A DNA stretch of 21,565 nucleotides from a virus, in IMG/VR virus record IMGVR_UViG_3300042914_001976, positions 1 through 21,565 of that record; one strand, 5' to 3'. Positions within the stretch are counted from its first letter, which is position 1. The number at the start of each line of letters is the position of its first letter. A model generated the notes under the pieces. The model was not told the origin of the DNA. It was given only the letters and a program-made list of their open reading frames with translations, and did not search any database. This document shows positions 2,647-20,317 of this stretch, piece by piece. The position numbers and the translations under genes were made by a program.

Positions 2647-2659
2647 GTCTGGTACTCCA

Positions 2660-2998: not shown

Positions 2999-3003
2999 GG
3001 TCG

Positions 3004-3736
3004 ATCATCCGAAACAGAGGGTGCGAACTCGGACAAACCCCGCGCCGCCAGCGCCGCCGGCACCGCCTGCGGTCGATCCCTTGCCACCGCCGCCGCCGCC
3101 GCCGCCACGGACGGCCGCGCCGCCAGCGCCGCCTGTCCCCGAAGTGTGTCTGGCGCCGCCGCCACCGCCGTTGCCGAAGCCGGTCACGGTGTCGAAGCCT
3201 CCGGCAGTGCCCGCCACGCCAGTCGTGCCGCTTCCGCCGCTTGCTCCCCCGCCGCCGCGCTTGATCTGGTAGTCGTAGGTCGCATCGGCTTCACCAGATG
3301 CAGCCTTGCCGCCGGCACCAGCTGCGCCGTCAGTCGCTCCCGATCCGCCTCCACCAGGGCCCATCGGTCGGCCAACGCGGCCGTCTTCGCCACCTTCAGC
3401 GCCTTGGCCAAAGAATCCACCGCTCGGCGCGCCAATGTCGTTGGTCAACTGCCAGAAGATTGCTCCCGTCTCGCTGTCCGATCCGCCGACGGGAGCTCCC
3501 ACGAACGCCCCAGGCGCGTACAGCTTGGTGCCGAAAGAAGTTGTTGAACTGCTCGACCATGTACCGGCGGCCATCGCGGCACCACAAGTGACGGTTTCGG
3601 TAGCAGACAGATCCGCAGCGATGAAAGTCTTGCTTGAAATTCGACCAGCATTGCCGCCGCGACCACCGTTGGTCGTGTCGCCAGCTGTGCCAGCTTCGCC
3701 ACCACCGCACATCGTGACCTCGACCCACAGCGCGTT
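3004..3736. repeat. 733-bp perfect direct repeat, copy 1
   Basis: By line-by-line comparison, 3004-3736 equals 19585-20317 (offset 16,581) without a mismatch. It starts one base outside the fibre stop codon and ends at codon 69. The next 204 bp of the same gene carry 20 differences, and the genes on both sides are much more diverged. It bounds the 16.6-kb element A. Confidence 0.95.
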
Positions 3737-3940
3737 TGCCGGCTTGGTCCACGTGCCGCTGCTGGTGAAATCCTGCGTGTTGACGGTAAGCGTGCCGCCG
3801 CCGCCGATCTCCACGCCGCCGGCGGTCGTGCCGTCGCCGACGTAGAGCTTCTTGGTGTCAGTCGTGTAGATAGGCTCGCCCTGCTCGGGCGTGATCGAGG
3901 TGCGGTCGGCGGCCACGCCGCGTCGGAGCTTGAGTGCCAT
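3005..3940 (-). CDS. Glycine-rich tail fibre / receptor-binding protein, copy 1
   Basis: 311 aa. Residues 1-48 (MALKLRRG..., ITPEQGEPIYTTDTKKLYVG, DGTTAGG) match the N-terminal attachment domain found in many tail fibres, including the Mtd-type N-domain. Residues 60-85 contain the 'SGTWTKP...WVEVTMCGGG' entry strand of polyglycine adhesins. The rest is long Gly runs alternating with short loops and ends GFVRVRTLCFG, the layout expected for a polyglycine-helix sandwich that presents host-binding loops. Residues 69-311 are encoded by DNA identical to copy 2 (19586-20521), while the first 68 residues differ at five positions (about 90% DNA identity). Poly-Gly produces CCG/CCGCC repeats on the plus strand. 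Confidence 0.85.
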   Translation of the reverse strand: MALKLRRGVAADRTSITPEQGEPIYTTDTKKLYVGDGTTAGGVEIGGGGTLTVNTQDFTSSGTWTKPANALWVEVTMCGGGEAGTAGDTTNGGRGGNAGRISSKTFIAADLSATETVTCGAAMAAGTWSSSSTTSFGTKLYAPGAFVGAPVGGSDSETGAIFWQLTNDIGAPSGGFFGQGAEGGEDGRVGRPMGPGGGGSGATDGAAGAGGKAASGEADATYDYQIKRGGGGASGGSGTTGVAGTAGGFDTVTGFGNGGGGGARHTSGTGGAGGAAVRGGGGGGGGKGSTAGGAGGAGGAGFVRVRTLCFG

Positions 3941-3941
3941 G

Positions 3942-4604
3942 TCAGAAGGTCCCCATGTCGTTGGAGGGTAGGTACGGGCTCGCGAACGTCTGGAAGTCGA
4001 GGTCGTTCAGCGGGAAGGCGAATGTCGCGTAGTCGTAGGGATTGATCGCCCCGAAATCCCTGTCGCCCTCCTCCGCGTCGAACGTGCCCGCCTCAAAGTC
4101 GTTCGTCGGGAAGAAGAATGTTCCGAAGTCGTCGCCCGCGTCGAGCGGCGTCGTGCACTGGCCGTCGATCGCGTTCGGCGCGTAGAAGACCCACATCGCC
4201 TCGCCGCCGGCGCCCGAGACGATCGCCCGGTTCTGGGGGAAGATGATCACATATCCCGTGATCGGACGCACGAAGAAACCCGCGGGAATGTTGGCGGGGT
4301 CTATGCCGGGACCGATGTAGCCGGCGCTGTTGAATCCCTCGCAGACGTTGAGCGCCTGCCCGGTGTACCAGGTCTCGGCGGGCCGCACCGCGAAGGCGTT
4401 TCCCGTGCCGACGGTCGTCGGTTGGACCTCGGCCATGCTCCACGTGTAGAGCCACCGGTAGGTCCCGATCGACGTGTAGCTCTCGATCCTCGCGATGAAG
4501 AACTGCGGGCGCGCCTCTCGCACGCGGTCGATCGCCTCGGCGTCGCCCGACACGTCGGCGCGGCTGTAGGCGTGGTTCAGCTTGTTGAGCTGCGTGCGGT
4601 TCAC
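3942..4604 (-). CDS. Tail tip protein upstream of the fibre (element A)
   Basis: 220 aa from a GTG at 4604, overlapping the previous stop (GTGA). The middle (about 35-150) is beta-rich with aromatic and Gly residues. The last 60 residues hold short D-F-G-T-F type repeats (DDFGTFFFP, NDFEAGTFD, DYATFAFP, DMGTF). The homologue 20521-21153 shares the C-terminus strongly (EEGxxDxGAxNxYDYATFAFPxNDLDF) but little of the N-terminal half. Location between the tail-tip protein and the fibre suggests a connector or short fibre; the conserved C-terminus may bind the conserved fibre N-domain. No enzyme motif. Confidence 0.7.
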   Translation of the reverse strand: MNRTQLNKLNHAYSRADVSGDAEAIDRVREARPQFFIARIESYTSIGTYRWLYTWSMAEVQPTTVGTGNAFAVRPAETWYTGQALNVCEGFNSAGYIGPGIDPANIPAGFFVRPITGYVIIFPQNRAIVSGAGGEAMWVFYAPNAIDGQCTTPLDAGDDFGTFFFPTNDFEAGTFDAEEGDRDFGAINPYDYATFAFPLNDLDFQTFASPYLPSNDMGTF

Positions 4605-5533
4605 GGGTAGGTGAGGTAGGTGCCCTCGAGCGCCATCTGCTTCGCGAGGACGGAGTCGGTGTTGGTGTTGAAAATCACGTTGAGGTCGGCGTTACCGCGG
4701 TTCAAGCCGGTCCAGAAGACAAACTTGGCCTTCTTCGTCGAGCCGTCGATGATCGGGAGTCCGTTCGTGTCGTACTCGGGCACCTGGTTGCAGTCGCGCC
4801 AGTAGTCCCACCGGAAGTTGTAGGTGACGCGGTAGTACTCGTCGCGGATGTTGGTGACCGTCGCGGAAGTGCAGAACACTTCGTAGGCGCCCCAGTGCAG
4901 AAACGTGGTGTTGTTCCACTTGCCCTGCACGGTGTTGATCTTGTCATAGACCGCGACGAGCGTTCCCGCGGCGGTGTTGCTTGTGTCTTGGACCATGGAG
5001 ATCCGCACATCCATCGTGGGAACGCGGACCTGGGTTGGCTTGCCCGCGTCGTCGATGCCTGTCCCGCCGATGTTCACGCTCTTCCCATAGATGTAGCTCG
5101 GCGCGACGGCGAATCCGCCCAGACTCGAGGCGGTGCGCCATGCCTGCATCGTGCGCTCGCCCGCCTCCATGTCGACCGTCACGGGCAAGACGAGCTTGTC
5201 GGAGCCGCCGCCGCCCGAGATGTTCGCCCACGTGTACTCGCTCGAGTACGTGGCAATCACGTCGAACACGTAGCCCTTCGAGCCGAGCACGGGGTCGATC
5301 TGGAACGCGCGGAGCCGCAGCGTCGTGGTTTTCGAGGACGTCGAGAACACCGTCCCGGGGATCGGGTCGCCGGGCTCTCCGCACGTGGCGTCCTGGATCG
5401 ACTTCGCGGAGCTCGACAGCGTGAGGGAGAGCGCAATGTCGGAGACCACTCGCCACTGGATCACGAATCCCTGCGACGTGCTCGGCCCGCCGTCGGTCCA
5501 CTGGGTTCGTACGATGGTCGTGGTGAGTGCCAT
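4601..5533 (-). CDS. Tail protein downstream of the tape measure (element A)
   Basis: 310 aa, beginning four bases after the tape-measure stop. The N-terminal 90 residues and the rest are beta-rich, with an SGGGGSDKLVLPVTVD linker-like stretch about residue 105-120. The C-terminal third contains DEYYRVTYNFRWDYWRDCNQ. In small siphoviruses this position holds the distal tail protein or tail hub, so a hub/tip role is inferred from order only. The partial gene at 21153-21565 is its homologue (EFYEVVMDYLYDEYFHHSQ aligned to the same strand region). No lysozyme or peptidase motif. Confidence 0.7.
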   Translation of the reverse strand: MALTTTIVRTQWTDGGPSTSQGFVIQWRVVSDIALSLTLSSSAKSIQDATCGEPGDPIPGTVFSTSSKTTTLRLRAFQIDPVLGSKGYVFDVIATYSSEYTWANISGGGGSDKLVLPVTVDMEAGERTMQAWRTASSLGGFAVAPSYIYGKSVNIGGTGIDDAGKPTQVRVPTMDVRISMVQDTSNTAAGTLVAVYDKINTVQGKWNNTTFLHWGAYEVFCTSATVTNIRDEYYRVTYNFRWDYWRDCNQVPEYDTNGLPIIDGSTKKAKFVFWTGLNRGNADLNVIFNTNTDSVLAKQMALEGTYLTYP

Positions 5534-5537
5534 GTGG

Positions 5538-6281
5538 TTACCGAGAAGTTAGCTTTGAAAGCTGATCTAGCATCGTCTGCGCGTTGATGAAGATGTCGTA
5601 TTGGGGTGCGGCTCCGATGCCGAGCGAGCGAGCTTCCTGCACCCCGATCGATCGCGAAATGGTTTCCGAAGTAGGAAAGCCTCCGGAAAGCAAAGTACCG
5701 AGAGCGGATCCGAATGCGCCTGGTCCATATTCGAAAAGGTTCTGAATGTTGCTGCGCCCGGTGCCGTAAAGCGCCCGCGATTGAGAGAAGGCACGGCCGA
5801 AGCCGATCGGTGCCGCGCCCATCTGCCTCGAGTACGCGGCGAGCGCCATGCCGCCCTCGCGCGTGAACCCAAGGCGGCGGAAGTCGGCATCGCTGATCGC
5901 GCCGCCGCGCACGGCGTCCGACGCCGCCTGGGCATCCGCTCGGAGCCGCGCGTAGCTGTCGGCAAGTGCGTTCATGCTGATCGCCGCCGCGGCCACGCCG
6001 CCGAAGGCGAGGCCCGCGCCGCCCATCGCACCGGCGGCCATGCCGAACTGGCCGAGACCGGCGACGGCGCCCAAGCCTTGCAGTGCCCTTCCGCCTACGC
6101 CGAGCTTCGTGAGGCTCTCAGCGAGCTGGTTCGCCTGTCCGCGCATCCCGCCGAGCGACGTCGTCGTCGAGGCCGCCTGCGTCTGGACGCGCTTCAGCGT
6201 GCGCGTGGCCCGCTCGCCTGCCTTCTCGAGGCCGGTCGAGTTGCCCGTGATCGCGATGTTTACGTTTGAGACCTTAGCCAT
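5538..6281 (-). CDS. Very short tail tape measure protein (element A)
   Basis: 247 aa. The N-terminus (NVNIAITGNSTGLEKAGERATRTLKRVQTQ) is typical of tape measure proteins: a strand, then a helix with TGLEKA..A...L. Residues 65-110 are an Ala/Gly/Met hydrophobic stretch, like the membrane-active part of tape measures. The position after the chaperone and gp10-like genes and before the tail-tip genes fits. Usual siphovirus tape measures exceed 600 residues; at about 0.15 nm per residue this one would specify a tail of roughly 37 nm. The ATG at 6281 overlaps the upstream gene by 8 bp. Confidence 0.75.
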   Translation of the reverse strand: MAKVSNVNIAITGNSTGLEKAGERATRTLKRVQTQAASTTTSLGGMRGQANQLAESLTKLGVGGRALQGLGAVAGLGQFGMAAGAMGGAGLAFGGVAAAAISMNALADSYARLRADAQAASDAVRGGAISDADFRRLGFTREGGMALAAYSRQMGAAPIGFGRAFSQSRALYGTGRSNIQNLFEYGPGAFGSALGTLLSGGFPTSETISRSIGVQEARSLGIGAAPQYDIFINAQTMLDQLSKLTSR

Positions 6282-6834
6282 GCTTGGCCTCCATGTGCTT
6301 CGCGACTTGCTTCGCGATCGCCTCCTCCATGATCGGGATCAGGCGCATGGCCGTCATTTGGTAGGCCTTGCGAAGGAAGAACGCACCCTCCACGCGGCCG
6401 ATGGACATAGTCATCTTCCGCTCACCGCGCGACTTCAGGAGAAGCGCCTCGTTTGGCGTCGCCTTCCGCTTCAAGTCGTGGCCGAACTCGAGCCACTTCA
6501 GATACCAATGCGGCGTGTCGTAGCCGCCGCGGTTGCGGATACCGAGACCGCCCCACACGACGCGACCCCTCGAGTAGCCGCGCACGGTGTAGGCCATGTG
6601 ATCCTTGATGTGCGGGTTGGGCCGGGTGACGCCACGCACCTTCTCAGTGGCTGCCGGGCGGCCATACGGGGCCATGGCCTTCGCCACCATGCGGGTCTTC
6701 TTGAACCACTCGCGGAAACCAGACTTCATCGCCCTGGTGCCCATCGGCGCCGCGAGACCCCTGAACTTGCGGTTCAGCTCCTCGATCGTCGCTCCGTCGA
6801 TCTCGACGGCTACCTTGAAGGCGTTTCCAGACAT
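6274..6834 (-). CDS. HK97 gp10-like tail completion / minor tail protein (element A)
   Basis: 186 aa from the ATG at 6834; a TTG one codon earlier is less likely. The N-terminal pattern 'VAVEIDGATIEELNRKFRGL...AMKSGFREWFKKTRMVAKAMAPYG' matches the HK97 gp10 family (short strand, then two amphipathic helices ending KAxAP). A central 'HIKDHMAYTVRGYSRGRVVWGGLG' and 'WYLKWLEFGHDLKRKAT' fit the family beta core (the WLEFG motif). Such proteins sit at the head-tail interface or help tail assembly. The start overlaps by one base a TGA in one frame of the upstream region, see the chaperone entry. Confidence 0.75.
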   Translation of the reverse strand: MSGNAFKVAVEIDGATIEELNRKFRGLAAPMGTRAMKSGFREWFKKTRMVAKAMAPYGRPAATEKVRGVTRPNPHIKDHMAYTVRGYSRGRVVWGGLGIRNRGGYDTPHWYLKWLEFGHDLKRKATPNEALLLKSRGERKMTMSIGRVEGAFFLRKAYQMTAMRLIPIMEEAIAKQVAKHMEAKHG

Positions 6835-6939
6835 CAATCGCCATGCCTTTCGGGCCGTGAAGGGCGTGCATCACGGCTAGCGGGGTCGTCAAGTCCATCT
6901 TCAGGCCGATCGCGCGCAGGACCTCGCGCGCGGGCAAGG

Positions 6940-7209
6940 CTAGTCCATGCCTTCGGAGTAGAGCTTGTCGATCTCCTCCGCGAGTTGCCTCGATGCGACG
7001 GCCTCGAGGCGAAGGCACTGTTCGAGCGATTCGAAGGCCGGGGCGTCCCCGTCCATCACGTGGTTGTGGATGAGCCAGGCGACCAGGTTCTCGCCGCGTT
7101 CGCGCGCATCGAGGAGCGCCGCCATGTCGGCGACGTTCGGGCGGCGAAGCGTGATCCGCTCGCCGCGGAACTCGATCACCTTCGGCCTTGCGAGAAGTGC
7201 GGCGATCAT
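6940..7209 (-). CDS. Tail assembly chaperone (gpG-like) (element A)
   Basis: 89 aa, starting at an ATG that overlaps the tail-tube stop (ATGA). The small acidic, helical composition and the place between tail-tube and tape-measure genes fit the gpG-type tail chaperone that holds the tape measure during tail assembly. It ends LYSEGMD at 6940. The following 100 bp (6839-6939) have no independent gene, but in the -1 frame they read LALPAREVLRAIGLKMDL and onward like a real protein, as in a lambda-style G-T fusion. I see no convincing slippery heptamer, and the -1 frame stays open to 6644, overlapping the next gene. Confidence 0.65.
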   Translation of the reverse strand: MIAALLARPKVIEFRGERITLRRPNVADMAALLDARERGENLVAWLIHNHVMDGDAPAFESLEQCLRLEAVASRQLAEEIDKLYSEGMD

Positions 7210-7592
7210 GCGACGGTGATCGCGGCGTTGTGAAGGCGGACGGTGAAGGCGACGTTGACCACGCTGTTGGGCGCGATCGTGACGCGCGACTGCTCAACGA
7301 GCGCGCTGTTGCACGTGATCGAGGTGTTCGTGTCGAGCACGACCTTGAAGTTGGCGAGCGTGTCGCCAGGCGTCAGCGTCGATAGGCCGTGATCGGTCTC
7401 GAGGTAGAAGAGCTCGACGTCGACAGTGCCCTCGAGGATTCCAGATTCGAACTTCTTGAACGTGCCATTGACCGCGGTCGTCTCGATGGATGCCTGGGAG
7501 AGGTTCGCGGTCACGTTTGCGACGTTTGAGATGGTCGCGGCAGTTGGGCTACCCCACTGGACCAGTGAGTTTCCTGATGTCTTGATAGGCAT
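7206..7592 (-). CDS. Major tail (tube) protein (element A)
   Basis: 128 aa. Starts MPIKTSGNSLVQWGSPTA; the body has the alternating strands of small tail-tube proteins (SQASIETTAVNGTFKKFESG, then EGTVDVELFY, then VVLDTNTSITCNSALV, ending VNVAFTVRLHN). 'I.TTAV.GT.K.F..GI.EGTVDVELFY' is characteristic of tube subunits in which a conserved hairpin is followed by a loop. Placement after the tail terminator and before the chaperone agrees. The length is at the small end for the family. Confidence 0.8.
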   Translation of the reverse strand: MPIKTSGNSLVQWGSPTAATISNVANVTANLSQASIETTAVNGTFKKFESGILEGTVDVELFYLETDHGLSTLTPGDTLANFKVVLDTNTSITCNSALVEQSRVTIAPNSVVNVAFTVRLHNAAITVA

Positions 7593-7595
7593 GGC

Positions 7596-7997
7596 TTATA
7601 TCCTGTGCATGATGATGAGCGTGGCGGTGCAGATTGCGGGCGCAGCTTCGTCGCCTTCGCCCAGGATGGGTTCCTCGATCACGCGGTACGTGGGTTCGTA
7701 GCAGACGCTCTTTCCCGCGGCGAAGTCGGCGTGGGCATTGATCTTCACGATCGCATCCTCGGCGAGATTCTGCGCGTCGAACTGTGTCTCGGCGACGGCC
7801 TTCAAGCTCACGCTCCACTGGTCGACGTCGTTGTTCGCCGGGCCCTTGAGCGCCGCCGCCGCGCCGTCGGTGACCTCGAACACGATCGCGGGGAGCGTGG
7901 TCGACTGCATCCGCGAGCCGTTGTAGACGCGCGTCGACGCGGTCGTGGCCGTGCCGATCCAGGTCTTCACGCAGGCTTCGATCGGGTTTGCACTCAC
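7596..7997 (-). CDS. Tail terminator / completion protein, DUF3168-like (element A)
   Basis: 133 aa from a GTG at 7997, chosen because it overlaps the previous stop (GTGA) and GGAGG lies just upstream; a GTG five codons earlier is possible. 'STTLPAIVFEVTDG' followed by 'WSVSLKAVAETQFDAQNLAEDAIVKI' is the strand-then-helix pattern of DUF3168-type tail terminators, which cap the tail tube and join it to the head. The gene order (connector, closure, terminator, tube) is the standard HK97-like order. Confidence 0.75.
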   Translation of the reverse strand: MSANPIEACVKTWIGTATTASTRVYNGSRMQSTTLPAIVFEVTDGAAAALKGPANNDVDQWSVSLKAVAETQFDAQNLAEDAIVKINAHADFAAGKSVCYEPTYRVIEEPILGEGDEAAPAICTATLIIMHRI

Positions 7998-8326
7998 TGG
8001 ACCTCCGCGCACTGGATGACGGCGACGCGGTCGGCCTCATCGAGATTCACGATCGAGATGATCCGCAGTGTCTTCCCACGTACGCTCAGGCGGTCGACTT
8101 CGGTGAGGCCGACGCGCGCGATGTTCGGCCACCGCGTCCGGATCTCCCAGTTGCTCACGACTGCGACGCCGTCGGCGTACACGCTCTCCTGGGAACCCTG
8201 CTCGCGCATATCGCAGCGGATCGTGCCGTTGCCCGTGTAGGTGTTCGTCCGGCGGCCGAGATTGTCGGTCGTGGTCGACGCCGTGAGCACGGTCGCGGTG
8301 CGATGGAGTCGGCCGCCCGAGATCAT
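7994..8326 (-). CDS. Head closure / head-tail joining protein (element A)
   Basis: 110 aa from the ATG at 8326, overlapping the connector stop (ATGA). The N-terminal MISGGRLHRTATVLTASTTT, the middle GTIRCDMREQGSQESVYADG and the C-terminal 'DRLSVRGKTLRIISIVNLDE' fit the small beta-barrel head-tail joining family (SPP1 gp16 / HK97 gp9-like), which closes the portal channel after packaging. Function is inferred from pattern and position. Confidence 0.75.
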   Translation of the reverse strand: MISGGRLHRTATVLTASTTTDNLGRRTNTYTGNGTIRCDMREQGSQESVYADGVAVVSNWEIRTRWPNIARVGLTEVDRLSVRGKTLRIISIVNLDEADRVAVIQCAEVQ

Positions 8327-8838
8327 CGGATCGGGCTCCGCACGCGGTAGGAGTCCATTATGAACCCGACGGACATCGGGACCACGTTGAGGCCGATCGG
8401 TTGGAAGGCCTCTGGGTTGTTGTACCAGGCGCCGACGAGCGCGATCACGCAGTGCGTGAGCGGGTCGGGAAGCGCGTCGTGGCCGCAGGAGTAGGTGACG
8501 GTCACCATGGTCCCATCCTTGCGCGCAGGCGCCTGGAGGAACCGCAGCACGGGCATCGGACCGTCGGAAAGGTCTACCCACCAGTCGGCCGTCGGGAGCG
8601 TCTGCGAGCCTGCCGCGGTGACGTAGTTCACCGTCGTGATCGACGCGAACGGGAAGCCGGGAATGACGGTGTCGGTCCAGTCGGAAAGGTAGAGCGTTTC
8701 CGTCCGCTGCGTGAGCGCGCGCCCGGTGTCGCGCTCGACGAGCTGCATAGCCGCCTCGCGGAGGCGGATGAGGTCGGCGTCGTCATCGTCGTAGTCGATG
8801 CGAAGCGCGCTCTTGATCGTGGAAAGAGGGACCGACAT
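8323..8838 (-). CDS. Head-tail connector (gp6-like adaptor) (element A)
   Basis: 171 aa. The N-terminal 'MSVPLSTIKSALRIDYDDDDADLIRLREAAMQLVERDTGR' is the helical signature of the gp6/gp15-type adaptor that docks under the portal (LK..LRID...DD..I..L..AA...IE..TG). A beta domain follows (YLSDWTDTVIPGFPFASITTV), then C-terminal helices (LTHCVIALVGAWYNNPEAF). Its start lies only three bases beyond a rho-independent terminator that separates it from the capsid gene, so its expression probably depends on read-through. Confidence 0.85.
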   Translation of the reverse strand: MSVPLSTIKSALRIDYDDDDADLIRLREAAMQLVERDTGRALTQRTETLYLSDWTDTVIPGFPFASITTVNYVTAAGSQTLPTADWWVDLSDGPMPVLRFLQAPARKDGTMVTVTYSCGHDALPDPLTHCVIALVGAWYNNPEAFQPIGLNVVPMSVGFIMDSYRVRSPIR

Positions 8839-8840
8839 GG

Positions 8841-8873
8841 AAAAGACCGTGCTCCCCTTTCGGGGAGCCGGTC
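8841..8873 (-). terminator. Rho-independent terminator directly after the capsid gene
   Basis: On the minus strand GACCG and GCTCCCC pair with GGGGAGC and CGGTC (12 bp, one bulged A), closed by a GAAA tetraloop and followed by TTTT. It starts 17 nt after the capsid stop and ends just before the connector start. This would favour capsid protein over downstream connector and tail genes, which are needed in few copies. Confidence 0.8.
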
Positions 8874-8889
8874 CGCGTGGGAAAGATGC

Positions 8890-10137
8890 TTAGCCGCGGA
8901 TGTAGGCGAAGGCCTCGGGGAGCGTGATCTTCGCGTCGAGGCGCTGATACACGTTGAGGCGGGTCTGGAGGTTCGCCTGGAGGCTGTACGGATCCATCAG
9001 CGCCGTGATGCCGGTGCGGTCGAAGATCTCGTAGTACTCGAAGTTCCCAAAGAGCGCGTACACGGCGCCGTCCGCGGTCGTGGTCGGGACGTACTTTCCG
9101 ACGCGGTACGGGAAGCCGTAGATCGTGCCGGGCACGCCGACGGTGAGCGCGTTGCTGTTCGGCGCGCCCGCGGGGAGCCACAGATAGTCCGACGGCGAGC
9201 TCGCCGAGCGGAGCTTGCGGACATGGCGGAGGAACGAATCCGAGACGAGCCAGGAGACCTGGGGGCCGTTCCGGTACTCGGGCGCGACGGTGTGTGCGGC
9301 GTCGATCACGTTGTCGAACGTCGTCGTCGTGAGCGCGGCGCCCGATCCGAGATCGATGCCCTGGGCGATCGTTCCGCCGTTGCGGCAGAGGCCGTCCGGC
9401 TCGGGCACGGTCGCGCCCGGGTTGCCGATCGTAAACGCTTCCTCTTCCTTCAGCGCCATGCTGATCGCCATTTTGCGGGCGACGTAGTCCATGCCCGTGC
9501 CGACGTCGCCGGTGCCGATCGCGTCCTCGATGAACTGCTGAGAGAGGATCGTCGAGCACCGCAGGGTGCGCGCGCGCACCTGAACCTGGGTGCTGAACGT
9601 CGGGTCGCTCGCGGTCTGCGCGGCCTCTTCCGCGATCCAGGCGCTCGTCGGGAGCGCGTTCTCGATCGCGATGTTGCGGTTCGAGTTGACGCGGTTCACG
9701 GTCGCGATACCGCGGATCACGCCCACCATCTGCTTCTTCTCGACGATGCGGCGCTCGAGGTCGACGGGGATCGCGGCGTTGGTTGAGCCAAGGCTCAGCG
9801 CGCGGAACTCGCCGACGTCGCCGGTCACGATCGCCTTGAGCCACCGGTGCGCGTACTCGGGCGATGCGGGATCCGACGCGGCGACGCGGCCCTTGGGCGC
9901 GCGCGACTCGAACTCGGGGACGGACTCGAGTCGGGCGAGGCGGGCCTCGAGCGCCTTGTTCTGCATGAGGATCTCGGCGGCCGTAAGGTCCGCATCCATG
10001 CGCGCGAACTTCTGGCGCTCCTCGCCGTTGCCCGAAAGGTCGACGCTCTGCGGCGCGCGGCCGGTGCGTGCCTCGTACGCGGCGAGGCTCTTGCGGTACT
10101 CATGCGTAATCGACTGGAGCTCGTTCAGCTCATCCAT
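8890..10137 (-). CDS. HK97-fold major capsid protein with N-terminal scaffold domain (element A)
   Basis: 415 aa. Residues 1-105 are charged and helical (delta-domain-like scaffold, removed by the protease in HK97-type phages). From about residue 110 comes the HK97 fold: 'AAIPVDLERRIVEKKQMVGVIRGIATV', 'ENALPTSAWIAEEAAQTASDPTFSTQVQVRARTL' (E-loop and P-domain strands), then 'SQQFIEDA', 'MALKEEEAFTIGN' (long spine helix) and a C-terminal 'GFPYRVGKYVP' A-domain. It overlaps the protease gene by 8 bp and is followed by a terminator. The likely cleavage site lies near residues 95-115, not determinable by eye. Confidence 0.9.
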   Translation of the reverse strand: MDELNELQSITHEYRKSLAAYEARTGRAPQSVDLSGNGEERQKFARMDADLTAAEILMQNKALEARLARLESVPEFESRAPKGRVAASDPASPEYAHRWLKAIVTGDVGEFRALSLGSTNAAIPVDLERRIVEKKQMVGVIRGIATVNRVNSNRNIAIENALPTSAWIAEEAAQTASDPTFSTQVQVRARTLRCSTILSQQFIEDAIGTGDVGTGMDYVARKMAISMALKEEEAFTIGNPGATVPEPDGLCRNGGTIAQGIDLGSGAALTTTTFDNVIDAAHTVAPEYRNGPQVSWLVSDSFLRHVRKLRSASSPSDYLWLPAGAPNSNALTVGVPGTIYGFPYRVGKYVPTTTADGAVYALFGNFEYYEIFDRTGITALMDPYSLQANLQTRLNVYQRLDAKITLPEAFAYIRG

Positions 10138-11828: not shown

Positions 11829-11879
11829 CGCGGGCATTCTCCCGCGCAAGTCAAGGCATGTCCGCGTCCAAAGTTGATT

Positions 11880-13622: not shown

Positions 13623-13896
13623 GGCCGTGTTCGATGGAATGGCAGTGGTTGCAAAGGGTTAGAAGGTTCGACCACACATACGTGAGGTCGGGCCGCACGT
13701 GTCGCGGAACGATGTGGTGCACGACGTCACCAGGCTTCCCGCATCGGGCGCAATGGGGATGCTGCATGATGTGGATGTTCCGCATCTTGCGCCACTTACC
13801 GCAGGCCACCAGGCTCTCTTTATGCACTGGCGTGCGGAACGTGCTCTTGAATGGGGGAGCGTGTCTAAACGTCTTGTGGGGGCTCTGCGGCCTCAA
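13606..13896 (-). CDS. HNH endonuclease (element A)
   Basis: Up to 96 aa. Zinc-binding CxxC pairs at 49/52 and 82/85, DVVHHIVP with His60/61, Asn77, and CNHCHSIEHG with His86/90 form the beta-beta-alpha metal fold of HNH nucleases. Phage HNH proteins beside TerL often assist DNA packaging or cleavage. The start is uncertain: TTG at 13896 overlaps the resolvase gene by 32 bp, while GTG at 13827 would give 73 aa and keep all motifs. The stop overlaps the furthest terminase ATG by 17 bp. Confidence 0.85.
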   Translation of the reverse strand: MRPQSPHKTFRHAPPFKSTFRTPVHKESLVACGKWRKMRNIHIMQHPHCARCGKPGDVVHHIVPRHVRPDLTYVWSNLLTLCNHCHSIEHGHEPQR

Positions 13897-14242
13897 TGCG
13901 TTCCCTCCGTACGTGACGGGCGCTCGAGCACTGGACCGAATCCTCGACCCAGTGCTCGAGCTGCATGATCGCGAGCCATGGGCGGCCGTTCGAGCGGTGG
14001 AGGATCACCCAGGGGCGCCCATGGGCGTCGCGCCGGCACTGCTCGACGGCCTTGCCGAGCTCGAGCCGTTCGGTGCGCTTGACCTCGACGTGGAGGTTCA
14101 TGCCCTCGCAGACGATGTCGGCGGCCGTACCGGCCTTGCCGCAGTACTGCGCCGTCCGACGGCAGAGCATCCCGAGCCTGTTGAGCTCCTGGACGATCTC
14201 ACGCTCGCCGACGGCGCCTTTCCTACGTTGCATCCCACCCAT
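13865..14242 (-). CDS. Holliday-junction-resolvase-like / PD-(D/E)xK nuclease (element A)
   Basis: 125 aa from the ATG at 14242, with GGAG nine bases upstream. Motifs: Glu13 in GEREIVQEL, Asp42 in ADIV, Glu53-x-Lys55 in HVEVKRTERL, and Gln68 in a helix, the order seen in archaeal-type Hjc and phage resolvases. It would resolve branched replication or packaging intermediates. It is separated from the primase-helicase by structured DNA and overlaps the HNH gene downstream. In-frame codons further upstream run through the inverted repeats and are unlikely to be used. Confidence 0.75.
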   Translation of the reverse strand: MGGMQRRKGAVGEREIVQELNRLGMLCRRTAQYCGKAGTAADIVCEGMNLHVEVKRTERLELGKAVEQCRRDAHGRPWVILHRSNGRPWLAIMQLEHWVEDSVQCSSARHVRRERIEAAEPPQDV

Positions 14243-14280
14243 TTCGATTTTCTCCACCGGGGGTACTTGCGCGTACTTGA

Positions 14281-14340
14281 CGGGGGAATTACGCTCTTCA
14301 GGCGCGCTTGACAAGCGAGCCGTGAGAGCGTAATCCCCCG
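14281..14340. repeat. Long inverted repeat with nested hairpin
   Basis: Left arm 14281-14297 and right arm 14325-14340 match over 16 bp with one bulged A (CGGGGGAATTACGCTCT against its complement). The 27-nt loop contains a second hairpin, CGCTT-GAC-AAGCG (14305-14317). It lies in the 128-bp gap between primase-helicase and resolvase. Confidence 0.8.
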
Positions 14341-14359
14341 GAAGAGTACACGCAAACCC

Positions 14360-14385
14360 AAGGCCACGGTTCATTCCGTGGCCTT
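14360..14385. terminator. 10-bp perfect hairpin at the end of the primase-helicase gene
   Basis: AAGGCCACGG (14360-14369) pairs with CCGTGGCCTT (14376-14385) over a 6-nt loop. It overlaps the last codons of the primase-helicase. The minus strand has only a weak T-tract after it (GGGTTT); the plus strand has TTCTTT. Terminator role is plausible, orientation uncertain. Confidence 0.45.
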
Positions 14386-15960
14386 GTTCTTTGATTTCGG
14401 CGAGCCGTGCAACGCCTCGAGGTCTCCCACGACCGTGTCGGTGAACGTGGGGTAGTCCCATCGGATCGCGAGTTTGCCGGGCCGCTTCGAGCTGCGCGTG
14501 TTCATCTGCTCGACGAATACGTCCTCCTCTTCATGCTTGAACAGCACGATGTGGGTGTCGACGGCTCGGCCGAGAGCGCCGGCTCCCGATCCTGCGTCGA
14601 TCGAGTCTTTGTTCGCCTGGTTGCCCTTGGCGGTGTGGTGGACAAGCACCACGCACGCGGACATCCGCGAGGCGTAGCGCGAGAACGCCCGTAGGAGCAC
14701 GGTCATGTCGGCGTTGCTGTTCTCGTCCATGCCCTTCTCGAGGAACCGATACAGGGCGTCGAAGATGACCAGGTCGTATTTCCCGAGCCCCTCGAGCTGC
14801 TCGAGCACGCTCTCGGCCGAGAGCGACGTCTCCCGGAGGCTTATCAAGTCGATCTTGTCCACGATCCTGGGCACAGAGATGCCCTTGGCGCGCATGACCT
14901 CTCGCATCCGGTGCGCCATCTCGTTCCGCGTAAGCTCGTTGTCGACCACGCAAACCCGCCCCTCGGCGACGTTCCAATGGCCGTGCCATCGGTTGCCCGT
15001 GGCGCACGCAAGCGCCAGGTCGGCCAAGAGGAACGACTTGGCGCACTTTGGCGGGGCGATGAGGCAGGCGACTTCGCCCCGCCTGAGCACGCCCTCGATC
15101 AGGTACGGGGTGCGTACGGGATGCTCCTCGAGGAGCGCCGCCAAGGAGATGGCCGGCAGGGGCTCTAGGGTCGCCTCTGAGGCGGGGGCGGCCGCGAGGG
15201 CTCCTCGGACCGTCCGTTCGACGTAGTCGGCCCTAGCGGCCTTCTCCTGCCTTCCCTCGCCCCGCATCTTCTCGACGAGCCGTGCCGTCATCTCCTCGGC
15301 TCGGAACCCACGTGCCGCGAGGTCGCAGCAGTAGGCCCAATCGGCCGCACTCGGGTCTCCTGCGGTACTCGGCGGTATCGCTGCGGTATTGGATGGCTTG
15401 GCCGGCTCCGGCTTGCGAAGGTACTTTTCGCACACCTCGTCCACGGCACCCTGAGCGTCGTTGACGTCCCGCCCGGTGAAGAGCCGGTCGCCCGTCACCG
15501 TGAAGAACCTTGCCTTTTGGTAGACCTCGACGGGTCCCCGCCGGTTCTGCGACCACTCGGGAAGTTCCACATTGTGGAAGATGGCGTGGACGCCCGTCTT
15601 GGACGGCGACCACTCCATGTAGGTCCCGCAGTCGCGGCCCCAGTCCCAGACGAACTCGCGCAGCGCCTTGGACTCGGGCGCGTCGAGGTTGTCGAAGTCG
15701 ATGCCGAGCCATCCGTCGCCGAGCATGAACCCGATGCCGAGCGCGACGTCGCCGTTCGCGACCTCGACGGCGTCCATGAACGACCCCCACGTGCTCGGGT
15801 CGGTGCTCGAGGCGGCGCCTCCGGTCTCGGGGTCGATGGGCATTTTGGTCCACCGCCCGTCCCGCTCGACGGCCCGCCAGTTCACCCATCTCCGCGCCGC
15901 CGTCATGGCCTCGGGGATGTCCTCGATCTCGAACGTGGTCCTGCCTTTCACGCTGCCCAT
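14371..15960 (-). CDS. Primase-polymerase-like / RepA-type helicase replication protein (element A)
   Basis: 529 aa with AAAGGAGG seven bases before the ATG. Residues 20-160 resemble the N-terminal domain of phage NrS-1-type and bifunctional primase-polymerases ('WVNWRAVERDGRWTKMPIDP', 'ASSTDPSTW', 'GIGFML', 'LGIDFDN'). Residues 280-500 form a RepA/AAA_25-type hexameric helicase: Walker A APPKCAKS (302-309, Lys308), Walker B LVIFDALYRF (Asp401), and LVHHTAKGN (439-447). Both glycines of the canonical Walker A are replaced by alanine, which is unusual. It is the only clear replication enzyme in the element and probably opens and primes the origin. A terminator lies upstream. Confidence 0.85.
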   Translation of the reverse strand: MGSVKGRTTFEIEDIPEAMTAARRWVNWRAVERDGRWTKMPIDPETGGAASSTDPSTWGSFMDAVEVANGDVALGIGFMLGDGWLGIDFDNLDAPESKALREFVWDWGRDCGTYMEWSPSKTGVHAIFHNVELPEWSQNRRGPVEVYQKARFFTVTGDRLFTGRDVNDAQGAVDEVCEKYLRKPEPAKPSNTAAIPPSTAGDPSAADWAYCCDLAARGFRAEEMTARLVEKMRGEGRQEKAARADYVERTVRGALAAAPASEATLEPLPAISLAALLEEHPVRTPYLIEGVLRRGEVACLIAPPKCAKSFLLADLALACATGNRWHGHWNVAEGRVCVVDNELTRNEMAHRMREVMRAKGISVPRIVDKIDLISLRETSLSAESVLEQLEGLGKYDLVIFDALYRFLEKGMDENSNADMTVLLRAFSRYASRMSACVVLVHHTAKGNQANKDSIDAGSGAGALGRAVDTHIVLFKHEEEDVFVEQMNTRSSKRPGKLAIRWDYPTFTDTVVGDLEALHGSPKSKNKATE

Positions 15961-16009
15961 GGAAACGCCTCCTTTGCGTCATCCGGCGCGCACTCCATGC
16001 GCCGTCCGT

Positions 16010-16046
16010 AAAAAGACAGGGCGCGCCCACCGTGGTACGCGCCCTG
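16010..16046 (-). terminator. Rho-independent terminator between OB-like gene and primase-helicase
   Basis: On the minus strand CAGGGCGCG (16038-16046) pairs with CGCGCCCTG (16017-16025), a 9-bp GC stem with a 12-nt loop, followed by TCTTTTT. It ends the early block and lies about 50 bp before the helicase start; I find no strong promoter in between, so the helicase may rely on read-through. Confidence 0.75.
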
Positions 16047-16068
16047 CCTGTGTTTGGCTTGGGGTTGA

Positions 16069-16485
16069 TCAGCCGCGCGCCGGGCGCACGGCGATGACGT
16101 TCTCGTACTGACCGTTCTTCTCGCTCTGGTACTCGATGCTCGCGCCCTTCTCGAGCGGGTCGATCGCCTCGATGAGCTTTCGGTCGAGCGTCGACATCTT
16201 CGCCGACATCCGCTCGCCGTTCTCGACCCACGACACGTAGAGCGCGGCGCGGGTGTACGGGCCCTTGGGCCCTTGCTTCTCCTCGACGCCCCAGAACGTG
16301 ACCTTGGCGCGCTTCCACGCGCCGAGCGGGGCTCCGCCACCGGCGGCGGGAGGGGGTGCGCTCCCGCCGCCGGCGTTGGAAGGAGCCTGGGGCTTGCGGA
16401 GCTCGGCGAGCAGGCGCTCGAGCTCCCCGATGATCCATTGGTTCGTGCTCATTGGTGTGAATGTCCTTCCCTTGGTGTTTCTCAT
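16069..16485 (-). CDS. OB-fold-like (possible single-strand DNA-binding) protein (element A)
   Basis: 138 aa from the ATG at 16485 (GAGG seven bases upstream; a GTG one codon earlier is possible). Residues 14-35 are a helix (NQWIIGELERLLAELRKP), followed by a Gly/Pro linker (AGGGSAPPPAAGGG). The C-terminal 75 residues read as five strands: 'WKRAKVTFWGVEE', 'GPYTRAALYVSWVENG', 'AKMST', 'GASIEYQSEKNGQYENVIAVRP'. The last strand ('NGQYENVIAV') resembles the end of OB folds in SSB-type proteins. It lies just before the helicase, the usual place for an SSB. No acidic C-terminal tail is present, so the assignment is inference. Confidence 0.5.
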   Translation of the reverse strand: MRNTKGRTFTPMSTNQWIIGELERLLAELRKPQAPSNAGGGSAPPPAAGGGAPLGAWKRAKVTFWGVEEKQGPKGPYTRAALYVSWVENGERMSAKMSTLDRKLIEAIDPLEKGASIEYQSEKNGQYENVIAVRPARG

Positions 16486-16808
16486 CACAGCGCCTCGCGC
16501 TGGACCTCGTCGTTGGTGCCGTCGGTGTACGTTCGGAGCTCGGCGCGGAGCTTCTCGAGCTCGGCGGCCTGCTTTTTCGTCTCGTCCAAGGCCACCCTTA
16601 GGTCATGCTGCACCACGTGATGCATCTCCAAGGCCTTCTTGAACTCATCGATACGCTCGGCCATAGACCGAATGTGCTTGGCAGCGTCGAGCATCACCTC
16701 GCTGCGCACGTCGCACGCTTGCCATCCGCTGCGGCCGGATGATCGAACCCAGCGGACCAGCGATTCATGCTTCAAGCGGTCGTAGATTGCCATGTCGTCC
16801 TGGGTCAC
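16485..16808 (-). CDS. Coiled-coil early protein (element A)
   Basis: 107 aa from a GTG at 16808 overlapping the previous stop (GTGA). Residues 1-35 contain 'MAIYDRLKHESLVRWVRSSGRSGWQA'; 38-100 form one long helix with heptads (MLDAAKHIRSMAERIDEF, then KKQAAELEKLRAEL). It shares the core ELEKLRAE with the neighbour 16805-17197 and may be a partner or diverged duplicate. No family recognised. Confidence 0.65.
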   Translation of the reverse strand: MTQDDMAIYDRLKHESLVRWVRSSGRSGWQACDVRSEVMLDAAKHIRSMAERIDEFKKALEMHHVVQHDLRVALDETKKQAAELEKLRAELRTYTDGTNDEVQREAL

Positions 16809-17197
16809 TTGGCACTCTCCTTCCGATCGATCTCGGCGCGGAGCTTCTCCAGCTCGCGCTGCGCGTCAAGCGCCTCGGCGCAGTACTGCGTCGAAAACTG
16901 TTGCCGGGCGCAGCCGGTGTTCATCCGAATCCGCTCGACCTCGATGCGGAGCTTCTCGATCTCGAGCGCGGCCTCGCGGATCACGCCGACGGCCTCGAGC
17001 ATCAGGCGGGCGGTCACGCGGTCGCCCGGCCCGACGTCGCCGACGCGGTCGATCAGGCGGTTGCGGACGTCCGCGGCGAGCTCGAGGAGCGTGTAGCGGG
17101 CCTTCAAAGGGTTGTTGCCGACGGCCGCGTTCCACTCGCGGGTCCAACGATCGTTGATCTCATTCGGCTCGATCTCCATCTTCGGGTCGTGACTCAT
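16805..17197 (-). CDS. Coiled-coil early protein (element A)
   Basis: 130 aa; ATG at 17197 overlaps the stop of the membrane peptide (ATGA). Residues 30-60 (YTLLELAADVRNRLIDRVGDVG) and 65-125 form helices; the C-terminus is a heptad-rich coiled coil (QRELEKLRAEIDRKE). Two cysteines lie at the break between helices (NTGCARQQF...YCAEA). It replaces, at the same operon position, the annealing-like gene of element B (18-494), so this site is variable between the elements. Function unknown. Confidence 0.65.
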   Translation of the reverse strand: MSHDPKMEIEPNEINDRWTREWNAAVGNNPLKARYTLLELAADVRNRLIDRVGDVGPGDRVTARLMLEAVGVIREAALEIEKLRIEVERIRMNTGCARQQFSTQYCAEALDAQRELEKLRAEIDRKESAK

Positions 17198-17450
17198 CGC
17201 ACCCCCCGATCGTCGAGGAGCGGCCAGATCGCGCAGAGCGCGAGGAATGCGATCCCGATGATCGCGCAGACGTTTCCGAACATGGTCGTGTCTCCTTCCT
17301 CGGCCTCGCCGTCACGGCAAGGTCGAGCATCACCGAGTAGCCTGCGATCGCCTCCTTGACGATCTGCCTACAGGATCTACCCATGCCACGCGAGAGGTCG
17401 TGCAACGTCTGCCAGGTGACTTCATCGACTGCGACGGCGCGCCTCTTCAT
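17160..17450 (-). CDS. Ribbon-helix-helix-type DNA-binding protein, first gene of the early operon (element A)
   Basis: 96 aa as read. Residues 1-45 (MKRRAVAVDEVTWQTLHDLSR, GRSCRQIVKEAIAGYSVML) match the RHH pattern and align with 484-756 at the second helix (GRS..[DQ]IV[RK]EA[LI]AG). The Ser/Arg-rich C-terminal half is out of frame with the membrane peptide and is probably an overlap artefact. The promoter lies six bases before the ATG, so the message is probably leaderless. Sequence differences in the first strand, which contacts DNA in this fold, go with a different palindrome near the promoter. Confidence 0.65.
   Translation of the reverse strand: MKRRAVAVDEVTWQTLHDLSRGMGRSCRQIVKEAIAGYSVMLDLAVTARPRKETRPCSETSARSSGSHSSRSARSGRSSTIGGCDESRPEDGDRAE
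17194..17283 (-). CDS. Tiny single-span membrane peptide nested in the RHH gene (element A)
   Basis: 29 aa: MFGN, then a hydrophobic helix (VCAIIGIAFLALCAI), then WPLLDDRGVR. The stop overlaps the next start (ATGA). It is read in another frame within 17160-17450. Architecture, end motif and coupling are shared with 491-589. Too short for usual gene callers. Confidence 0.6.
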   Translation of the reverse strand: MFGNVCAIIGIAFLALCAIWPLLDDRGVR

Positions 17451-17485
17451 GTGGCCACGGTATTAGATCGGTCGAAGGGCGTCAA
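17451..17485 (-). promoter_or_regulatory. Early promoter (element A)
   Basis: Minus strand: TTGACG (17480-17485), 17-bp spacer, TACCGT (17457-17462), then six bases to the RHH ATG. An 8-bp palindrome GTGGCCAC (17451-17458) overlaps the end of the -10 box. The stop TGA of the preceding Cys-rich gene lies within the -35 box. Same design as 756-793. Confidence 0.6.
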
Positions 17486-17733
17486 GGGCTTGAAGGAAAC
17501 TGGCGATTCAGTTCCTCGCGGCGTCTCTGGCATCCGCAGTCGGGCGCGACCGTCTTGACAACCGCCGCCACGCCCGTCACAGTCGCTACGGCGTGCACCA
17601 CGTCGCCCAGGCCGCGCGCCGGGCCTTCGTAGTGCGGGCAGACATGGCAGACGCCACGCGAAGGACGCGGACCGTAAAGCGGCAGCGCGACGGCGTGCGT
17701 GCATTCGCCGGCGCGGTGGTGCTCGCACTTCAC
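17482..17733 (-). CDS. Small Cys-rich phage protein with CxxC and CxC motifs (element A)
   Basis: 83 aa from a GTG at 17733 that overlaps the stop of the larger Cys-rich gene (GTGA); same length as 790-1041. VCHVCPHYEGPARGLGDVV and DCGCQRRREELNRQF are conserved; the N-terminal KCEHHRAGECTH adds further Cys/His ligands absent from the other copy, supporting a small metal-binding fold. Last gene before the next promoter. Confidence 0.75.
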   Translation of the reverse strand: MKCEHHRAGECTHAVALPLYGPRPSRGVCHVCPHYEGPARGLGDVVHAVATVTGVAAVVKTVAPDCGCQRRREELNRQFPSSP

Positions 17734-18320
17734 GTGACGGTCACCGTGCCGTAGTTGAACTGCCCGTACTTGGCGCCGGCAAAGCCAAAGCTTTGGCAAA
17801 GCGCACCGTCTCCAAACGTCTCGACGACCGCCAGCGTGAATCCTGTCGGCGTGCAGCTGTAGTTGGACGCAGTCCGGTACGTCAGGCGGCCGCATGCCGT
17901 CTGCACGCGGACCTCCCAGTATGGACGCGGCGGAACCGCGCAGGAATCAGGAGGAAACAGACGGACCGTGACATTGTCCGTCGCGGTGTACGTGCTGTTG
18001 ATCGTCTCGCAGGAACAGTTCAGACACGGGTAGGAATAGCTCCGCGCCGACGTCGAGAACGTCTGGGCAGTGACGTTGAAACTGCACGTGCCCGCGTTCC
18101 ATGTCACCACGCGATTCAGCGCCGTCTGCGTCACGGCCGCGGTGATCCGGTTCTGAAGGCTCGGGAAGTTCGCGAAGCACGTCGCGAACTCGGCGCATGA
18201 TTCGGGCACAAGCTCGCAGAAGCCGCTCCAGTTCACCAGGTAGCTCGACGGCATGGTGGCGCCGCAGTTGCAGCACCCCGGCGGCTCGCCTTCGCAGCAG
18301 CACGTGCGCGCAATGGTCAC
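17730..18320 (-). CDS. Large Cys-rich late protein, function unknown (element A)
   Basis: 196 aa from a GTG at 18320 (GTGA overlap). I count 17 cysteines, about 9% of residues: CCC at 7-9, CCNC at about 18-21, and CLNCSC in the middle. The body is Thr/Val/aromatic-rich, probably beta. It aligns with 1038-1721 in position and N-terminal Cys cluster; otherwise very diverged and about 30 residues shorter. A secreted or virion-surface role would need oxidising conditions; metal binding is the alternative. Confidence 0.65.
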   Translation of the reverse strand: MTIARTCCCEGEPPGCCNCGATMPSSYLVNWSGFCELVPESCAEFATCFANFPSLQNRITAAVTQTALNRVVTWNAGTCSFNVTAQTFSTSARSYSYPCLNCSCETINSTYTATDNVTVRLFPPDSCAVPPRPYWEVRVQTACGRLTYRTASNYSCTPTGFTLAVVETFGDGALCQSFGFAGAKYGQFNYGTVTVT

Positions 18321-18592
18321 TCGACCTCCTCGGGGCTCACCGCATACCACCCGCGGATATCCACCTTGCGGGCGCTGCGGACCCACTCGCCGCCCTCGAG
18401 CTGGAGCACGTGCACGGGTTCGGCGATCCTAACCGGGCTTCCCTGCCTGATCATCACCGTGTCTCCGCAACCACTCGCGAACGGCCATAGCAGCACGCTC
18501 GCGGCGAGGATCGAGGTCCGCGTCGCGCGCGCGAGGCCGCCTCGCGTAGTGGGCGAGGATCGCCACGGCGATCTCGGTAAGCAGTCGTTCAA
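18317..18592 (-). CDS. Putative lipoprotein, o-spanin-like position (element A)
   Basis: 91 aa from a TTG at 18592 that overlaps the holin-like stop (TTGA); no ATG or GTG lies in a suitable place. Hydrophobic stretch about residues 28-38 ends FASGC, a good lipobox with Cys42. The mature part has RQGSPVRIAEP and RGWYAVSPEE. It pairs with 18740-18922 as a candidate spanin set. Confidence 0.6.
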   Translation of the reverse strand: MNDCLPRSPWRSSPTTRGGLARATRTSILAASVLLWPFASGCGDTVMIRQGSPVRIAEPVHVLQLEGGEWVRSARKVDIRGWYAVSPEEVE

Positions 18593-18756
18593 GCACGCGG
18601 CTCCGCATCCTTCGCGAGGATCAGGCCGATGCCCGCGATGATCGCGGAGACCGCCGCGGGCCAATCGACGGCCGCGGGCCACCCGGTGAGGATGCCCGCC
18701 GCCGCGGTGAGGATCGCGGCGATGCCGGCGAACGTCGTCTTACGGTTGCCTTTCAT
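18589..18756 (-). CDS. Holin-like small membrane protein (element A)
   Basis: 55 aa, ATG at 18756 with AAGGAAA just upstream. Two hydrophobic helices (about 8-23 and 32-48) flank GWPAAVDWP; charged tail KDAEPRA. Differs from 2008-2175 at four residues or so. Same 17-bp overlap with the upstream coiled-coil gene. Confidence 0.65.
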   Translation of the reverse strand: MKGNRKTTFAGIAAILTAAAGILTGWPAAVDWPAAVSAIIAGIGLILAKDAEPRA

Positions 18757-18922
18757 GATGTTTCCTTTCGAGCGCCGCGATGCGGCTCTCATAGTGCGCC
18801 ATTGTCGCGCGGAGCTCGGCGAGCATCACTTCGACGCGCGTGAGCTTGCCCACGACGACCATGGTCGTGGTGACCACCGAGGCGATGATGCCGAGAGCAC
18901 CGGCGAGCGTGGCGACGTCCAT
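18740..18922 (-). CDS. Membrane-anchored coiled-coil protein, i-spanin/XhlA-like (element A)
   Basis: 60 aa. Residues 4-25 form one membrane span (GALGIIASVVTTTMVVVG), then the coiled coil KLTRVEVMLAELRATMAHYE with heptads to RIAALER. Same length and end (ERQP) as 2159-2341. It directly precedes the holin-like gene in the transcript. Confidence 0.65.
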   Translation of the reverse strand: MDVATLAGALGIIASVVTTTMVVVGKLTRVEVMLAELRATMAHYESRIAALERKHHERQP

Positions 18923-18923
18923 G

Positions 18924-19223
18924 TCACACTCCGTGGAACAATCCGTCGGTGATCATGATCCGCATGTCGGGAGTGGCAGACTCCGACGCGAACGTAAGTC
19001 GCGCCGCATTCGGCGGGTTGCCGATGCAATGCCACTTGCTCGCGGCAAGCCTAGCAAAGCTCGTCGATGAATTCGGGCCGGTCACGCGAATGATCGCGTC
19101 TGACCAGACGTACGCGGTGAATCCGCCGTTGGCCGAAATGGTGGCTCCGCCCAGGTTGGCGGTCGTAATCGCCGCTGCGGTCGTAGTCAGCTGCTGAACC
19201 GATGTGAAGATCATCGCCTGCAT
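18924..19223 (-). CDS. Small tail-associated beta-rich protein (element A)
   Basis: 99 aa from the ATG at 19223 (MQAMIFTSVQQL). Beta-rich: 'NLGGATISANGGFTAYVWSD', 'AIIRVTGPNSSTSFARLAASKW', 'PDMRIMITDG'. The place and length match 2338-2646. No family recognised; probably virion or fibre-associated. Confidence 0.6.
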   Translation of the reverse strand: MQAMIFTSVQQLTTTAAAITTANLGGATISANGGFTAYVWSDAIIRVTGPNSSTSFARLAASKWHCIGNPPNAARLTFASESATPDMRIMITDGLFHGV

Positions 19224-19225
19224 GG

Positions 19226-19579
19226 TTACCTCGTTGCTTCCGGGGTTATGTATACGGTGCCCTCCAGGATGCGGAGCACGATGCCCGACGCGGTATCCTG
19301 GACTTCGATGTCGTAGACGCCCGTCCAGGGCGCCGAGAATCCTGCGGTCTTCGTCGCGGAAAGGGTGACGCCGATATCGGAATGCGCCCCGTGAGCCACC
19401 CACGAGATCTCAGTCGGGTTGGTCACGCTGTCGATCGCGAACATGGTCGTGCTCGAGGCGTGCTGCGCGCGCGCCTTCATCCGCGCCGTCTGTCCCGCGT
19501 TGTGCGCGACGTGGAGGATGTGCTCCTGAAATGAGAACGTAGCGCCCTGTTGGATGATGAGGTCTCGTCCGATCGTCAT
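19226..19579 (-). CDS. Fibre-adjacent beta-sandwich phage protein (element A)
   Basis: 117 aa. 'RDLIIQQGATFSFQEHI', 'GQTARMKARAQ', 'TGVYDIEVQDTASGIVLRILEGTVYITPEATR' is a clear example of the 'QGATF...YDLEV...R.LEG.V.V.PEVTR' phage family seen beside tail fibres. The start lies six bases downstream of the fibre stop. Clearer family match than its element B counterpart (2660-2998). Confidence 0.75.
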   Translation of the reverse strand: MTIGRDLIIQQGATFSFQEHILHVAHNAGQTARMKARAQHASSTTMFAIDSVTNPTEISWVAHGAHSDIGVTLSATKTAGFSAPWTGVYDIEVQDTASGIVLRILEGTVYITPEATR

Positions 19580-19584
19580 GATTT

Positions 19585-20317
19585 ATCATCCGAAACAGAG
19601 GGTGCGAACTCGGACAAACCCCGCGCCGCCAGCGCCGCCGGCACCGCCTGCGGTCGATCCCTTGCCACCGCCGCCGCCGCCGCCGCCACGGACGGCCGCG
19701 CCGCCAGCGCCGCCTGTCCCCGAAGTGTGTCTGGCGCCGCCGCCACCGCCGTTGCCGAAGCCGGTCACGGTGTCGAAGCCTCCGGCAGTGCCCGCCACGC
19801 CAGTCGTGCCGCTTCCGCCGCTTGCTCCCCCGCCGCCGCGCTTGATCTGGTAGTCGTAGGTCGCATCGGCTTCACCAGATGCAGCCTTGCCGCCGGCACC
19901 AGCTGCGCCGTCAGTCGCTCCCGATCCGCCTCCACCAGGGCCCATCGGTCGGCCAACGCGGCCGTCTTCGCCACCTTCAGCGCCTTGGCCAAAGAATCCA
20001 CCGCTCGGCGCGCCAATGTCGTTGGTCAACTGCCAGAAGATTGCTCCCGTCTCGCTGTCCGATCCGCCGACGGGAGCTCCCACGAACGCCCCAGGCGCGT
20101 ACAGCTTGGTGCCGAAAGAAGTTGTTGAACTGCTCGACCATGTACCGGCGGCCATCGCGGCACCACAAGTGACGGTTTCGGTAGCAGACAGATCCGCAGC
20201 GATGAAAGTCTTGCTTGAAATTCGACCAGCATTGCCGCCGCGACCACCGTTGGTCGTGTCGCCAGCTGTGCCAGCTTCGCCACCACCGCACATCGTGACC
20301 TCGACCCACAGCGCGTT
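19585..20317. repeat. 733-bp perfect direct repeat, copy 2
   Basis: Identical to 3004-3736, same orientation. Left junction is one base outside the fibre stop codon; right junction is at codon 69 of the fibre, after which identity falls to about 90% over 204 bp. Confidence 0.95.

Follow-up and report, generated by a model that had tools for sequence, protein, structure and literature searches.

The 21,565-bp stretch of DNA analysed here (the window) is a whole linear IMG/VR record and represents a metagenome contig rather than a piece of an isolate genome. Very probably, this contig is a chimera that arose during assembly from two small, circular tailed phages occurring together, A and B. Phage A is complete (16,581 bp), and only about 5 kb of phage B is present. 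Taken as a single genome, it would pass for a 21.6-kb phage with a pair of fibre genes and a pair of lysis regions; dividing it into a complete 16.6-kb phage and part of a second one is preferable. What remains of use is a fibre cassette that moves between lineages whose large terminase subunits (TerL) are only about 55% identical, and that is missing altogether from close relatives of A. The real biology beneath the chimera would be a recent exchange of this receptor-binding cassette.

Direct repeats of the contig

Two direct repeats were identified at positions 3004-3736 and 19585-20317 by self-comparison of the window. The sequence-only reading had described them as free of mismatches, and the comparison confirmed that they are identical and maximal at exactly 733 bp. 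Their start-to-start spacing is 16,581 bp. Copy 1 (3004..3736) contains the distal 243 codons of a fibre gene, ends one base past the stop codon and links a B flank with an A flank; at the identical copy 2 (19585..20317), an A flank leads into a B flank. To the left of the repeats, the two flanks are ~50-60% identical, except in two conserved patches. To the right, flank identity falls from 95% to 75% until about 4160, and the flanks are unrelated thereafter. The 733-bp tract is the sole long stretch of perfect agreement between A and B; at the ~10% divergence of the adjoining fibre N-terminus, 733 identical bases would be expected with P ~1e-33.

Gene content and relatives of the two lineages

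Relatives were retrieved with three queries, namely the terminase, the fibre and a 213-aa tail protein. The middle of the window (3737..19584, minus strand) belongs to lineage A and, together with one repeat, forms a complete circular gene order of 16,581 bp. It contains genes encoding tail and tape-measure-like proteins, head-tail connectors, capsid, protease, portal and TerL, as well as HNH, nuclease, primase/AAA, early and lysis-like genes. The assignments of TerL, portal, capsid and protease are supported by profile matches. TerL (11880..13622, minus strand) matches phrog_9 (1.3e-113) and TerL_nuclease (2.4e-33), the portal protein (10677..11849, minus strand) matches Phage_portal (3.3e-62) and the HK97-type major capsid protein (8890..10137, minus strand) matches Phage_capsid (4.4e-40). 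A primase/AAA helicase-like protein (14371..15960, minus strand) matches AAA_25 (8e-32) and PHROG primase families. An 89-bp imperfect palindrome (76%) occupies window positions 14267-14355, between the primase gene, whose stop end is at 14371, and the inside of the next gene.

The part removed with the middle and one repeat had been said to close into a circle of 16,581 bp, and this closure is borne out by the alignment of the excised A circle, in order, with the circular A-like relative L042, whose exact 127-bp terminal repeat gives a closed unit of 17,271 bp. Relatives closer than L042 show 90-92% identity to A. Positions 4162-19580 match L006/L041, L017/L044 and, in part, L019/L045 at roughly 78-93%, and 4162-13514 is 90% identical to L006. 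A 117-aa gene of A type beside the fibre gene (19226..19579, minus strand) is 81-88% identical in L041, L044 and L045. The DNA around it (19214-19580) is 85-92% identical to A-type contigs, which supports the earlier grouping of the 17.5-19.6 kb region with the middle. That grouping had been weakly favoured by rough hand counts of GATC (12, 17 and 20 in three segments); a recount gave 11, 17 and 22, so the counts were roughly right, but GATC separates the segments poorly. Tetranucleotide composition gave no useful separation either, whereas homologues do separate the segments.

The outer flanks belong to lineage B. The left flank (1..3003, minus strand) contains early genes and small membrane/lysis-like genes. 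Among its products are an RHH protein (484-756, RHH_1 match), a 266-aa Cys-rich protein (1038-1838) and the product of a 112-aa gene (2660-2998), the latter two being 92-97% and 85-95% identical, respectively, in the closest B-type contigs. The right flank (20318..21565, minus strand) contains the fibre N-terminus, the gene for the 213-aa tail protein, which is 91-98% identical in 12 contigs, and a partial 132-aa tail gene. Positions 776-3257 and 20271-21565 match L024, and over most of their length L025/L047, at 80-93%. Within these regions, 776-2326 and 2657-3257 are 86-88% identical to L024, and 20271-21565 shares 92.7% identity with L024 and L025. L024 is a B-like contig with an exact 127-bp terminal repeat and a closed unit of 17,330 bp; another B-like contig, L076, closes at 16,395 bp. 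Once the middle and one repeat are removed, the B flanks match L024 collinearly and without a break through the fibre gene, where they lie side by side. The normal gene order proposed earlier for the joined flanks is thus matched by a circular relative.

Judged by homology, the middle comes from one phage and the flanks from another, because they have different sets of relatives and because the TerL of A is 96-98% identical in A-type relatives and only 53-57% identical in B-type contigs. Contigs of both types co-occur in metagenomes 34071, 44701 and 43427. Both parents were found separately with parental junctions, as relatives and not as the same strains, which agrees with the earlier claim that two related circular phage genomes meet here in a shared fibre gene. 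The search for a free A circle or a joined-B contig of the same strains, which had been proposed as a check, gave none in viral_contigs, a collection from which records near the window may have been omitted. A 30-mer of the repeat had zero exact matches in viral_contigs, where records near the window may be omitted, and a 33-mer of A likewise had zero, with the same possible omission of near-identical records; these scans thus gave no second, independent instance of either junction.

L024, L042, L044 and L076 are uncultivated closed HK97-type tailed phages of 15.7-17.3 kb without close isolate relatives, and this group is near the lower size limit of siphophages. The relatives with matching ends all close at 15.7-17.4 kb. 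Among isolate phages, TerL matches are all below 60%; the best-ranked TerL match is about 29% identical, and the best-ranked TerL and capsid matches together fall at about 27-30%. The smallest siphophages reported are Arthrobacter phages of cluster AN, with an average of 15.5 kbp, and Rhodococcus phage RRH1, with 14,270 bp (PMC5513430). The phages described here resemble cluster AN and RRH1 in having a very small tailed-phage genome with a full set of head and tail genes; the likeness is one of size and gene set, as isolate TerL matches remain below 60%.

Assembly of the contig

For every tested k up to 734, the window has the same k-mer multiset as circle A and joined B combined, and a difference arises only from k = 735. 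Sequence data shorter than ~735 bp therefore cannot separate a cointegrate from two phages. At k = 127, A and B give a graph of four unitigs, which are B-left, the 733-bp node, the A loop on this node and B-right. Two edges enter the 733-bp node and two leave it; of the trails leading from B-left to B-right, the window alone takes in all edges of the graph.

The following course of events is proposed. Phages A and B would recently have acquired an identical 733-bp distal fibre segment via homologous recombination. The shared segment would form one node of a short-read graph with two entries and two exits, on which the A circle is a self-loop. The assembler may then have passed from the B left flank into the node, once round A, into the node again and out through the B right flank. 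Such a walk through a shared repeat had been listed earlier only as an alternative and is now the leading reading.

Overruns of this kind are found in three sister contigs. L044 (3300034101_002197; 1-2737 / 15732-18468) extends 2.7 kb past a unit of 15.7 kb, into a second branch of 83% identity. L049 (3300035670_001786; 1-392 / 16794-17185) and L043 (3300044701_002879; 1-159 / 17413-17571) overrun into second branches that are 97% and 99% identical, respectively. The anchor of the overrun is exactly 127 identical bp in all three, and 127 is the largest k in common SPAdes settings. L043, L044 and L049 are likely assembly overruns into another strain. Against a chimera in the window, its own ends carry no 127-bp signature, the above search of viral_contigs, where records near the window may be omitted, gave no free A circle or joined-B contig of its strains, and conservative assemblers often stop at nodes of this type rather than cross them.

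Several features of the window are in line with published work. De Bruijn assemblers cannot pair upstream with downstream contigs across a conserved region (PMC11443906), several genome configurations can fit one graph (PMC9104695), phage repeats and mosaicism lead to chimeric contigs (PMC10563150), and chimeras and concatenation occur in assembled contigs (PMC7111523). As in known de Bruijn chimeras (PMC10563150, PMC11443906, PMC9104695), the window has a shared node longer than the read length, two entries and two exits, and a circular loop, and its group includes sister contigs whose ends diverge beyond anchors of exactly 127 bp, as in known overrun contigs. Unlike known chimeric contigs, the window combines parents whose relationship is no more than distant (TerL about 55% identical), with one parent's whole unit enclosed by the flanks of the other.

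Alternative explanations

The sequence-only reading favoured a real cointegrate, left by a single crossover between two related phage genomes in the fibre gene. Under this rival, one crossover in the fibre segment common to A and B, during co-infection or while a single cell carried both, would have produced a heterodimeric circle or concatemer of ~34 kb. The anatomy of the window exactly fits a reciprocal crossover in a pre-existing identical segment, with one complete unit lying between repeats of the shared sequence in the same orientation, and both lineages are present in the same samples. However, when contigs were classified by the genes flanking the fibre site, 13 had a B-fibre-B junction, two had A-fibre-A and three had A-A without a fibre, and the mixed A/B junctions of the window occurred in none of these 18 classifiable contigs. 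Four remoter contigs that could not be confidently classified (L034, L035, L077 and L078) were left out of this count; the flanks of L035 are mixed at only 41-53% identity, and it has no fibre gene. In addition, if B is of the usual size, the cointegrate of ~34 kb would be twice the unit of every relative with matching ends (15.7-17.4 kb), and a packaging limit would presumably apply. The identity of the repeats must also pre-exist in any case. A single crossover re-pairs the flanks and leaves differences between the repeats intact, so A and B already shared the 733 bp, and two separate phages then suffice to explain this contig. With parental junctions in all classified relatives, a pre-existing repeat identity and overruns in three sister contigs, the physical single-crossover cointegrate is not preferred and is considered improbable. 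A joint A/B genome inside a cell is given a similarly small chance. It is also quite unlikely that two distantly related 17-kb phages yielded, by recombination in the exchanged fibre cassette, a genuine heteromultimer abundant enough to assemble; if true, it would represent fibre exchange caught at the cointegrate stage.

A chimera in which the 733-bp identity itself is artificial, slightly different fibre alleles having been collapsed to a consensus, is less likely still. In its favour, closely similar strains can be fused by assemblers into one consensus (PMC11443906), and the tract is the only long perfect agreement between A and B. Against this, the window and most B contigs with 88-98% identical flanks share only 45-50% identity in the middle of the fibre gene, and therefore independent alleles would be too far apart to collapse unless they had already been exchanged.

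A tandem array of diverged prophages with a fibre gene homogenised by gene conversion, the other alternative raised earlier, would account for related units that point the same way and share a single identical tract, but it is very unlikely, since no tyrosine integrase (PF00589) was found in the window or in seven relatives, no bacterial DNA was seen in the contig, both ends of which are phage B, only one remote TerL match (25% identity) was found in 84,980 species genomes, and the relatives occur as single closed circles.

Probable exchange of the fibre cassette

Beneath the probable assembly chimera, the sharing of the 733 bp would itself be ordinary phage gene exchange. The two copies of the fibre gene are assigned by their N-termini. 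The A copy (3005..3940, minus strand) encodes 311 aa and matches Mtd_N (4.4e-12) and PHROG tail families. The B copy (19586..20521, minus strand) has an N-terminus whose DNA is 92.6-98.5% identical in B contigs (L024, L047, L058, L076, L079-L081, L083, L084 and L086). The distal part of the fibre is glycine-rich, with a match to Gly_rich_2 in Pfam (0.003) that is below the cut-off, and no solved structure was matched by the fibre sequence. A diversity-generating retroelement, suggested by the Mtd_N match, was rejected after no reverse transcriptase (PF00078) was found in the window or in seven relatives.

The A fibre N-terminus and the C-terminal 73 codons of an upstream 220-aa gene occupy 3737..4161 (minus strand). 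Together with the repeat (3004-3736), this segment forms a 1,158-bp cassette that is absent from the closest A-type relatives. In L041/L006, L044/L017 and L045/L019, the sequence corresponding to window position 19580 is joined almost directly to that of 4162. The upstream gene in L041, L044 and L045 ends in ...NAIDGVCT*, the next gene follows immediately, and no Mtd_N gene is present in these three contigs. Because the cassette is so cleanly absent from L041, L044 and L045, it is evidently a present-or-absent module in lineage A.

The fibre genes of L024, L046, L047, L049, L058, L076, L079-L081, L083, L084 and L086 were compared. Among B contigs, the N- and C-terminal ends of the fibre are conserved and the middle is hypervariable; identity of this middle to the window is 45-50% in B contigs with 88-98% flanks, except in L086 (77%). 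Such a pattern is that of exchange in a distal segment which presumably binds the receptor. L046 and L049 agree fully in the N-terminal part, after which identity falls to 63% and 45%; an allele swap is seen between these two contigs. Within the window, identity between A and B rises from 69% at the end of the preceding gene through 90% over the fibre N-terminus to 100% distally. These steps along the cassette suggest successive exchanges, the last of which would be very recent.

Exchange of tail fibres among phages is well documented (PMC10684548). As in the documented cases, a conserved N-terminal attachment part is combined with a swapped distal part, and a near-identical tract lies within otherwise divergent genomes. 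Unlike those cases, the evidence for exchange here comes from a probably chimeric contig and from uncultivated phages that lack isolates. A relative of the same fibre, 69% identical, was also detected in L072/L073 (3300032335_000508; 30,612 bp), a different, AT-richer phage with 57% GC and a 123-bp terminal repeat, and the fibre family therefore crosses phage groups.
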